Of a stretch of DNA of 49,215 bases, positions 18,450 to 20,671 are shown piece by piece (position 1 is the first letter of the stretch; each line of letters begins with the position of its first letter). A model generated the notes under the pieces. That model saw only the letters and a program-made list of their open reading frames with translations. It was not told the origin of the DNA and did not search any database. The translations under genes were made by a program, and so were the position numbers. The stretch is from Ruegeria sp. (GTDB lineage Bacteria; Pseudomonadota; Alphaproteobacteria; Rhodobacterales; Rhodobacteraceae). The stretch is taken from positions 12,433 to 61,647 of the forward strand of contig NZ_JALCBM010000016.1 in NCBI RefSeq assembly GCF_028066395.1, given 5' to 3'.

Positions 18450-19142
18450 ATGGCGCATGAAGCACAAAAGGCCATCGCGCGGCAGTCGCTGCTGCTCAAA
18501 AGCCTGCCCGAGCAACATGTCGACACCTTGCTGAGCCACGCGATCTGGCGGCGCTATGACCGGGGTGAGACGATCTTTCTGCAGGAAGAAGAGGCCAAGG
18601 CGGTGCATGTGGTGCTGGCCGGATGGGTCAAGCTGTTCCGCATGTCACCCACCGGGTCCGAGGCCGTGGTCAGCGTCTTTACCCGTGGCGAAAGCTTTGG
18701 CGAGGCCGTGGCCCTGCGCAACGTGCCCTATCCGGTCTCGGCCGAGGCGGTGTCCCCCTGCGAGGTGATGCACATCCCCAGCCCCCTGCTGCTGTCGCTG
18801 ATGCGCGAGGATCCCGAGATCGGCGTGTCGATCCTGGCCGCGACCTTCAGCCATCTGCATGCTCTGGTGGCGCAGTTGGAGCAGTTGAAGGCGCAGACCG
18901 GGGCGCAGCGGGTGGCCGAATTCCTGCTGAACCTTTGCGTCAATGACAAAGGCGGATGCGAGGTGGAACTGCCCTATGACAAGATGCTGATCGCCGGGCG
19001 TCTGGGGATGAAACCCGAAAGCCTGAGCCGCGCCTTTTCGCGCCTGAAAACCGTGGGCGTGCGGATCAACCGCAATCATGCGGTGATTTCGGATGTGGTG
19101 GGGTTGCGTGATTATGCCGAAAGCGATCCGTCCGAGAAATAG
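18450..19142 (+). CDS. dnr: Crp/Fnr-family regulator, Dnr/Nnr type
   Basis: A 230-residue regulator: cNMP-binding-like beta roll (about 25-125), long dimer helix (about 128-155), and a winged helix with the HTH around YDKMLIAGRLGMKPESLSRAF. It lacks the N-terminal cysteine cluster of Fnr. Such proteins (Dnr, NnrR, Nnr) sense NO, probably through haem, and activate nir and nor promoters. The E-SLSR recognition helix is compatible with TTGAC-type boxes. It diverges from hemA and is followed by the globin-cyclase operon. A cAMP-binding Crp role cannot be excluded from sequence alone. Confidence 0.88.
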   Translation: MAHEAQKAIARQSLLLKSLPEQHVDTLLSHAIWRRYDRGETIFLQEEEAKAVHVVLAGWVKLFRMSPTGSEAVVSVFTRGESFGEAVALRNVPYPVSAEAVSPCEVMHIPSPLLLSLMREDPEIGVSILAATFSHLHALVAQLEQLKAQTGAQRVAEFLLNLCVNDKGGCEVELPYDKMLIAGRLGMKPESLSRAFSRLKTVGVRINRNHAVISDVVGLRDYAESDPSEK

Positions 19143-19215
19143 GGGCGGCGCCGCATGGGCGAGACATAACAACGCTTAAAAGTTAACAAAACTGTCATTT
19201 TGATATATGCTCGCA

Positions 19216-19234
19216 GTGTTATCGCCAATAACAC
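19216..19234 (+). promoter_or_regulatory. Perfect palindrome before the globin-cyclase operon
   Basis: GTGTTATcgccaATAACAC: 7-bp perfect arms around 5 bases, ending 13 bases before the preferred GTG start of the truncated haemoglobin gene. Its layout suits a dimeric repressor operator near the transcription or translation start; an mRNA hairpin hiding the start is the alternative. It does not match the NNR-type box. Confidence 0.6.
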
Positions 19235-19247
19235 TTCGGTTTTTGTT

Positions 19248-19616
19248 GTGAGTCAGACCATTTACGAGAAATACGGCGGGTTCAAAACCATCAGCCGCAT
19301 CGTGATGTCATTCTATGAGATGGCATTGGAATCCGAACAGATCGGCGATCATTTCGATGATATCGACATGCCGCGCCTGATCGATCATCAGACCAAATTC
19401 GTGTCTTCTCTGGTCGGTGGCCCGGCCTCGTTCAGCGATGACCGGATCGAGGCGGTGCATCGCCATCTGAACATCTCGCATGATGATTTCGATGAGATGA
19501 GCGCCCTGTTGCGCGAGGCGCTGGAGATGCACGGGATGGCTGATGGGGATATAGATATCGCGCTTGAAGCGATCGAATCCAAACGCGCCATCATCGTGGC
19601 CCGGACCGCCGCATGA
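19248..19616 (+). CDS. Group 1 truncated haemoglobin
   Basis: A 122-residue protein from the GTG giving MSQTIYEKYGG, which fits family N-termini; a TTG 48 bases upstream is also open. Features of trHbN-type globins: YEKYGG start, SFY with Tyr23 at B10, HQTKF (47-51), VGGP (56-59) and proximal His71 in AVHRHLNIS. These proteins bind O2 and NO; many dioxygenate NO to nitrate. The gene overlaps the PAS-cyclase gene by 4 bases (ATGA), so the two are translationally coupled, and it follows the Dnr-type regulator. A haem sensor feeding the cyclase, or NO detoxification, are the two possible roles. Confidence 0.87.
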   Translation: MSQTIYEKYGGFKTISRIVMSFYEMALESEQIGDHFDDIDMPRLIDHQTKFVSSLVGGPASFSDDRIEAVHRHLNISHDDFDEMSALLREALEMHGMADGDIDIALEAIESKRAIIVARTAA

Positions 19617-20671
19617 GCATTCTTGCCATCAATGAGCATCTGCTGCGGGCGATCGGGGTGGGGGTCGCGGTGCTGCGGGCCTCGGACCTGACCTTTGTGT
19701 TCCACAACGGCCCCTTTGCCGAATGGTTCGGCACGCCCGAACCGGGCCAGACCCTGCTGGACATCCTGCCCGATCTTGATCTGAAAGAGCTGGAGGATGT
19801 GAAGCAGTCCGGTCTACGCTATTCGGTTGAGTTGCAGATCAAACCCAAGCGCCGCACGCTGATCTTTGCCACAGCCATCTCGCTGGCCAATGGGCTGGAA
19901 GAACAGGTGCTGGTGGTCGAATGCCAGAACATCACCCGCATCCGCGAGTTGGAGAGCATGATCGACAGCTATTCGACCATGGTGGAACGCAATACGCGTG
20001 AGTTGGAGCGCGAGAAGGAACGGGTCGAGCGCCTGCTGCTGAACCTGATGCCGCGCGCGGTCTATGAAGAATTCAAGACCTTCGGCGTGGTGACGCCGCA
20101 GCTTTATGATAAGGTGTCGGTGGTCATGCTGGATTTCGTGGGCTTCACCGATTTTGCCGCCAAGACCGACCCGACCGTAACGCTGAGCGAGTTGAACGAC
20201 ATTTTCACCGCCTTCGACCGGATCGTGGAACAATTCGGGTGTGAGCGGATCAAGACAATTGGTGACGCCTATCTGGCGGTCTCGGGCATGCCCGATGCCA
20301 CGCCGGATCATGCCACGGCGGTGGCCCATTGCGCGGTGCGTTTCCTGCGTTATCTGGAGCGGCGCAATGAAAGCCATCCGCATAAATGGCAGGCCCGTAT
20401 CGGGCTTGGCATGGGCGCGGCGGTTGGTTCGGTCGTTGGTATCCAGAAATATGTCTATGACGTGTTCGGCCCGGCGGTGAACATCGCCTCGCGCCTGCAG
20501 GTCTTTGCCAATCCGATGAATATCGTCGCCCCGGAAGAGATGAAGTATGCCCTGATCGACGAGTTTCAGATCACCGATCTGGGGCCGAGCGACATCAAGG
20601 GGATGGGGCGGATGGAACTGATCAACGTGACCTCGCGGCTGGGAACGCCGCAGAAAACCCGGATGTTCTAG
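19613..20671 (+). CDS. PAS-domain class III adenylate cyclase
   Basis: A 352-residue cytosolic protein: N-terminal PAS-like domain (about 10-110), a charged coiled-coil signalling helix (about 112-145), then a class III cyclase domain (165-345). Metal ligands are Asp174 (MLDFVGFT) and Asp218 (IGDAY); transition-state residues are Asn290 and Arg294 (NIASR). The purine-selecting pair is Lys214 (IKTIGD) and Asp283 (YDVFG), the adenylate- rather than guanylate-cyclase combination. No haem-nitric oxide (H-NOX) domain is fused; the partner haem protein is the truncated globin encoded just upstream. The PAS assignment is from fold-like pattern only. Confidence 0.88.
   Translation: MSILAINEHLLRAIGVGVAVLRASDLTFVFHNGPFAEWFGTPEPGQTLLDILPDLDLKELEDVKQSGLRYSVELQIKPKRRTLIFATAISLANGLEEQVLVVECQNITRIRELESMIDSYSTMVERNTRELEREKERVERLLLNLMPRAVYEEFKTFGVVTPQLYDKVSVVMLDFVGFTDFAAKTDPTVTLSELNDIFTAFDRIVEQFGCERIKTIGDAYLAVSGMPDATPDHATAVAHCAVRFLRYLERRNESHPHKWQARIGLGMGAAVGSVVGIQKYVYDVFGPAVNIASRLQVFANPMNIVAPEEMKYALIDEFQITDLGPSDIKGMGRMELINVTSRLGTPQKTRMF

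Follow-up and report, generated by a model that had tools for sequence, protein, structure and literature searches.

A truncated haemoglobin gene paired with a PAS–class III cyclase gene in Alphaproteobacteria: a putative gas sensor in two polypeptides

The gene pair and the domains of its proteins

We analyzed a stretch of 49,215 nucleotides of a Ruegeria sp. genome (the window, in its full length), in which the gene of a small truncated haemoglobin directly precedes, and overlaps, the gene of a PAS–coiled-coil–class III cyclase. The features discussed below are as follows:

18450–19142, forward strand: Crp/Fnr-type regulator (PF00027, PF13545), listed as context only and not in the unit
19183–19211, forward strand: promoter-like TTAACA-17-TATGCT before the pair, weak (consensus scan; recurrence in Ruegeria upstream regions)
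19248–19616, forward strand: group 1 truncated haemoglobin gene, 122 residues, GTG start (PF01152; Tyr, Phe, Gln, and His pocket residues)
19613–20671, forward strand: PAS–coiled-coil–class III cyclase gene, 352 residues (PF00211; AlphaFold2; Foldseek)
19613–19930, forward strand: PAS domain, cyclase residues 1–106 (predicted PAS order of strands and helices; PAS_8 in relatives)
19931–20083, forward strand: signalling coiled coil and transducer helix, residues 107–157 (helices in the model; many invariant residues in 25 aligned rows)
20090–20632, forward strand: class III catalytic domain with D174, K214, D218, D283, N290, and R294 (alignment of 54 representatives)

The identities that a sequence-only reading of this DNA had given to the two proteins hold in Pfam searches, with 56.2 bits for the globin against PF01152 (cut-off 21) and 140.1 bits for the cyclase against PF00211 (cut-off 21.9), and the 4-base overlap that it described is the ATGA at 19613–19616. 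Its starting position for the globin, 19216, lies in another frame; the start codon is most likely the GTG at 19248, which aligns with ATG starts in relatives. The window globin has the proximal histidine, TyrB10, PheCD1, E11 glutamine, and glycine motifs that mark group 1 truncated haemoglobins (trHb1s). In the alignment, Tyr23 (B10), Phe36 (CD1), Gln48 (E11), and His71 (F8) are present in all 53 scoreable paired globins of the family defined below, as are the 2 glycine motifs (G10, G11, G57, and G58). In alignments to solved trHb1s, the columns of Tyr23 and Gln48 hold different residues in 3aq7 and 3aq9 than in 3aq5, in keeping with the presumed position names B10 and E11. Judging from these conserved pocket residues, the window globin is predicted to bind haem and a gas.

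The paired globins also carry a signature on helix E, DHQTK, around Gln48. Compared with 14 unpaired or CheA-borne trHb1 domains, namely the subset of unpaired globin matches whose locus was returned, D46 occurs in 53/53 paired globins versus 1/14, H47 in 53/53 versus 2/14, T49 in 52/53 versus 1/14, and K50 in 51/53 versus 1/14. The 4 residues flanking Gln48 form a candidate docking or relay surface, and the signature may merely be a subfamily marker.

In the cyclase, Lys214 and Asp283, which the earlier reading had singled out, are found by alignment together with Asp174, Asp218, Asn290, and Arg294. We take Asp174 and Asp218 to be the metal aspartates, Lys214 and Asp283 the ATP-type residues, and Asn290 and Arg294 the transition-state residues. 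All 6 are intact in 46 of the 53 scoreable cyclases, position 214 being Lys in 45 of them and Arg in 1. These residues fit an adenylate cyclase, which is the putative activity of the window enzyme. Its AlphaFold2 model (mean pLDDT 82.4, pTM 0.53) comprises a PAS-like alpha/beta domain, a long helix (residues 107–145), a short helix (148–157), and the cyclase part, and its top 2 Foldseek matches are the bacterial adenylyl cyclase domain 5o5l (E 8e-20) and 5o5k, with chains of soluble guanylate cyclase next. The N-terminal PAS fold stands on the topology of this model and on its relatives, as a permissive PAS_8 search (E ≤ 10, best value 7e-6) recovers 22 of 25 family members, with the window protein itself under the Pfam cut-off (E 0.0057, 17.0 bits versus 21.8). 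The family alignment has no conserved His in the PAS domain, and the sole conserved PAS Cys, Cys104 at the junction with the coiled coil, is kept in 47/52 representatives. As stated in the earlier reading, the cyclase has no fused haem domain: the globin is in a separate frame, and Pfam scans of the globin, the cyclase, and their immediate neighbours found no HNOB domain. The same genome encodes eleven class III cyclase domains and, near a contig end (L001, 111–443), a second truncated haemoglobin.

Linkage, spread, and co-inheritance

Family loci were collected by cyclase searches under strict limits (E 1e-55 in the class and phylum samples; the best 80 of 526 matches among GTDB contigs), so that remoter members are under-represented; cyclases of approximately 26–40% identity were not counted in the family, 2 such loci (L212 and L213) being searched with both profiles, and a contig-end fragment (L029) was excluded from the pairing counts. 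The globin lies upstream of the cyclase in all 118 loci compared, within 134 bases in 116 of them. Near-copies are included in this number and some genomes occur twice; clustering at 85% identity yields 54 representatives, all of which keep the pair. Among these, 31 overlap (25 by exactly 4 bases), 13 have gaps of 1–10 bases, and 8 have gaps of 17–134 bases. The other 2 (L160 and L166), counted as paired, carry stop-interrupted cyclase genes, the distance from the globin to the cyclase piece found being 309 and 418 bases; neither entered the trees, and the counts of active-site, haem, and signature residues exclude L166. Stop codons interrupt the cyclase frame in 2 pairs (L124/L160 and L130/L166). 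The concern that the adjacency might be peculiar to a single genome does not apply, since it recurs in many genomes (118/118 loci).

Matches to the cyclase at the set limit occur in 44 of 394 genomes of the window's taxonomic family (its own included). All 24 full-length members among them have the globin directly upstream, and, apart from these and L029, the matches are of lower identity and mainly cover the catalytic part. At E 1e-55, the cyclase family is present in 17 of 385 genomes of the class and 3 of 398 of the phylum, all 3 belonging to the window's class; each of the 2 samples includes the window's genome and one family member. Among the best 80 of the 526 relatives on GTDB contigs are loci of Ruegeria, Leisingera, Tritonibacter, Roseibium, Stappia, and others, the closest named ones being from Ruegeria (93% cyclase identity) along with a metagenome-assembled genome (MAG) at 95%. 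In the samples searched, the distribution of the pair is thus patchy, and it is seen only in Alphaproteobacteria. A Treponema plasmid cyclase with 27.8% identity over 90% of the query was considered to lie outside the family because its gene is longer (3 kb) and no globin is among its annotated neighbours.

From the globin side, 18 globins in the 385 class genomes score above 110 bits against a profile of the paired globins, the next-scoring reaching at most 92 bits, and 16 of the 18 adjoin the cyclase. The remaining 2 (in G431 and G700) have no such cyclase nearby; the one in G431 (L199, 5931–6383, minus strand) lies beside a gene that by eye resembles an aromatic-ring oxygenase. In the search with both profiles, genome G125 was found to carry a second cyclase copy of 35% identity (L212, minus strand), degenerate and split over 2 frames, with an intact globin gene directly upstream that keeps all haem residues. 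No member of the cyclase family without the globin was seen in the 118 loci examined. Arranged head to tail in many alphaproteobacteria, the 2 genes appear inseparable, suggesting an enzyme for cAMP synthesis whose gas-sensing part, the haemoglobin, is detachable.

Natural fusions of globin and cyclase were not seen. Six globin matches in long open frames, opened as candidate fusions, proved to be CheA-type chemotaxis kinases, 3 by Pfam and 3 by eye; the inspection covered these 6 and left out those in G473, G530, G677, G487, G690, and G767 (>590 residues) and some shorter frames. The kinases are alphaproteobacterial and contain trHb1 domains: in L188 and L191, Pfam finds the order Hpt, globin, dimer, kinase, and CheW, and in L195 a globin ahead of the kinase core plus a second within the CheW region, while L190, L192, and L197 are CheA-like by eye. 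We found no report of a trHb1 inside CheA in the open-access literature searched. The trHb1 fold is thus built into other signalling proteins of the class as well.

Trees of the globins and the cyclases (52 rows each) have their main groups in common. L113, a second pair in Ruegeria sp. ANG-S4, groups with a Rhizobiaceae MAG (L112) in both, and the plasmid-borne pair of Novosphingobium pentaromativorans US6-1 (L003) groups in both with a genome of the window's family. Distances between globins and between cyclases are correlated (Mantel r 0.81; 0 of 2000 permutations as high), the nearest cyclase partner being among the 3 nearest globins in only 38 of the 52 rows. By these tree and distance comparisons, the pair moves as a unit; such agreement indicates joint inheritance and not contact.

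Genomic setting and cyclases that have lost catalytic residues

The sequence-only reading placed the pair directly behind a Dnr-type NO regulator and beside denitrification genes. The regulator is of the Crp/Fnr type and ends 105 bases before the globin; the Dnr assignment was not confirmed, the best NCBIfam match being FtrB at 115.7 bits, below the cut-off of 211. Farther upstream in the window lie a hemA-type gene and norB/Q/D/E-like genes. This context would suit an NO sensor tied to denitrification, with the Crp/Fnr-type regulator in its circuit. However, nor, hemA, and the Crp/Fnr-type (dnr) regulator are found in none of the flanks of the 117 other loci (tblastn, E 1e-20, half of the query; about 8 kb on each side where sequence is present), including the 38 Ruegeria-like loci that share the window's downstream genes, and of all the window genes upstream of the pair, only one, of unassigned function, recurs, in a single locus. 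All 38 Ruegeria-like loci retain the window's downstream genes, TetR, PPK2-like, and metA-like (names of the latter 2 assigned by eye), so the upstream genes seem to have arrived here, and the denitrification setting looks accidental rather than part of the system. The genome moreover possesses a separate H-NOX, a protein type with a role in NO sensing: its only HNOB match (L202), on another contig, is a classical H-NOX beside a GGDEF (diguanylate cyclase) gene. With its contextual support lost, we dropped the link to denitrification and regard a sensor of this kind as improbable.

Upstream of the globin, the promoter consensus scan gave 1 hit where 0.9 was expected by chance; most aligned Ruegeria upstream regions share the TTAACA and a TATA-like block, and the sequence farther upstream differs. 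A perfect inverted repeat, GTGTTAT-CGCCA-ATAACAC (19216–19234), was rejected as an operator for lack of conservation across 29 other upstream regions. In one sub-branch (L003, L138, L139, L141, L142, L147, L148, L150, and L151), OsmC-like genes lie within 9 kb of the pair, most of these loci also having FAD-dependent oxidoreductase genes and some alpha/beta-hydrolase or PLP-enzyme genes (names partly by eye).

Gene-family comparison of the flanks identified no third gene that adjoins the pair across the family. This result, and the replacement of Cys104 in 5 of 52 representatives that nonetheless retain the globin, speak against a scheme in which the globin would serve the cyclase by redox chemistry or haem delivery, for instance via Cys104, instead of sensing a ligand. 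The position of that cysteine at the PAS–coiled-coil junction and its retention in the other 47 are what such a scheme has in its favour, and we consider it most improbable.

Seven of the 53 scoreable cyclases have lost both Asn290 and Arg294, 2 of them also Asp174, and 6 have Arg at position 214; the lost residues are needed for catalysis as a homodimer. Six of the 7 form one clade, with support of 86/99 in the cyclase tree, which is below the starred level, and 98/98 in the globin tree. In all 6, a PAS histidine kinase gene overlaps the end of the cyclase or starts within 30 bases of it, kinase starts being open-frame starts that may be off. In the seventh case (L152), a PAS histidine kinase gene is divergent and beside the globin. 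Seven more representatives, all with intact cyclases, have a kinase of this subfamily that starts, in divergent orientation, about 1.0–3.0 kb upstream of the globin, and L162 has one upstream in the same orientation. Because 6 of the 7 losses belong to one clade, the association with the kinase represents few events. The globins beside these cyclases, like the one beside the still more degenerate copy in G125, have intact haem residues, which suggests that the globin–PAS–coiled-coil part is of value without cAMP synthesis; in this branch, it possibly steers the kinase. If so, the clade would be a natural experiment in which a sensor was re-wired to another output.

An intact globin next to a degenerate cyclase would also be expected of an enzyme with a task of its own. 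The main rival explanation holds that the globin is an NO dioxygenase or handles O2 or reactive oxygen species, protecting the cell or the cyclase, with the PAS domain sensing another cue and the 2 proteins sharing a stress operon without contact. TrHb1s with TyrB10 and GlnE11 are also known as NO-dioxygenating enzymes, and by its resemblance to these the globin could act alone. The 2 of 18 close globins without such a cyclase, one beside the oxygenase-like gene named by eye, and the OsmC-like and flavoprotein genes that recur near some pairs point the same way. Against this explanation stand the pairing of every cyclase in the 118 loci with a globin, the overlap of the genes in 31 of 54 representatives, by exactly 4 bases in 25, the PAS domain without a conserved His, and an E-helix signature that, by its presumed position, flanks Gln48 and does not consist of the pocket residues themselves. 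On balance, we think the enzyme explanation unlikely, if less so than any other rival.

The pair as a putative split sensor and its known counterparts

The proposal that the 2 genes encode a split gas sensor, already made from the sequence alone, has gained from the occurrence of the pair in many genomes, the finding of the cyclase only with a globin, the invariant haem pocket, the PAS domain devoid of a conserved His, and the E-helix motif; the part concerning NO and denitrification did not survive the comparison of 117 loci. We regard it as probable that the 2 genes constitute one signalling device in two polypeptides, in which a haem globin acts as the sensor that switches a cyclase. The globin would bind haem and a gas, most likely O2 and possibly NO, and would dock, in a putative physical contact, at the end of the cyclase dimer formed by PAS and coiled coil. 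From there, the coiled coil would transmit the ligand state of the haem and so switch the synthesis of cAMP from ATP, a direction of regulation that we infer. In the lineage in which the cyclase chemistry has been lost, the globin signal would probably be passed to the histidine kinase encoded directly downstream. A joined globin–cyclase AlphaFold2 model, made from L113 read through the stop (461 residues; mean pLDDT 84.4, pTM 0.43; without PAE or interface score), gave in Foldseek only matches of the kind already seen.

More tentatively, a free 2/2 globin may serve as the haem subunit of a soluble guanylate cyclase-like PAS–coiled-coil–cyclase and have given rise, in one lineage, to an adaptor without cyclase activity that relays the signal to a histidine kinase, a combined proposal that we hold as a possibility rather than an expectation. 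If true, it would amount to a new class of gas sensor and to a case of one sensor switched from second-messenger to phosphorelay output. Truncated haemoglobins are widespread, but few have a settled role, and they are mostly discussed as NO-detoxifying or O2-handling proteins. A globin tied to a cyclase would give them a concrete role in signalling, testable with 2 small soluble proteins, and, were the sensor reading true, the haem part of an enzyme resembling soluble guanylate cyclase could come from an unrelated fold on a separate chain. We found no published description of the globin–cyclase pair in the open-access literature searched, most subscription papers being outside the scope of the search.

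Among the catalytic parts, the closest solved relatives of the window cyclase, in both catalytic domain and transducer helix, are class III adenylyl cyclases of the mycobacterial Rv1625c/Cya type, with Foldseek identities of 38% and 37% to 5o5k and 5o5l and 34–35% to the Rv1625c entries. Rv1625c is membrane-bound, and we know of no globin partner for it. The best solved relatives of the globin are stand-alone trHb1s (3aq5, E 3e-13, and the HbN-type 1idr), which have the Tyr, Gln, and proximal His in common with it, whereas the paired globins differ in carrying DHQTK on helix E and in standing in tandem with a cyclase.

Control of a signalling enzyme by a globin is likewise found in globin-coupled sensors and in HemAC-Lm of Leishmania, which are fused proteins with 3/3 sensor globins. 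HemAC-Lm, which PMC12755159 also mentions, is a haem-containing adenylate cyclase. By comparison, the window globin is truncated and a separate protein, globin and output domain are in separate reading frames in the window and its relatives, and the pair is therefore not a globin-coupled sensor.

Soluble guanylate cyclase has the same order of PAS, coiled coil, and class III cyclase as the window protein. The window model aligns with both of its chains in Foldseek over approximately 360–395 columns (E about 2e-15 to 2e-18, 18–21% identity), and an rmsd of 15–20 angstrom over these long alignments means equal domain order only, not a common rigid shape. The 2 systems differ in that soluble guanylate cyclase has a fused H-NOX, whereas the window pair has a separate trHb1, and in that the window enzyme has Lys/Asp instead of the GTP-type residues. 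The HNOBA domain (PF07701) matches all 25 family members examined at E ≤ 10 (best 2.4e-5); in the window protein it is below the cut-off (17.5 bits versus 23.4) and covers the helix end only. A control, an ordinary REC-cyclase of the same genome, also matches part of this end, so that we rejected the HNOBA match as proof of kinship with soluble guanylate cyclase and take it as weak support. The GGDEF protein beside the H-NOX of L202 has an HNOBA match at its N-terminus.

Bacterial H-NOX proteins and their partner diguanylate cyclases or kinases are, like the window pair, a haem sensor and an effector encoded by neighbouring genes, but they differ from it in haem fold, effector enzyme, and messenger. 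Because no H-NOX is fused to or adjacent to the window pair and HNOBA stays below its cut-off, the pair is a member of neither system. In our reading, the pair would work like soluble guanylate cyclase or like an H-NOX–effector pair without belonging to either.
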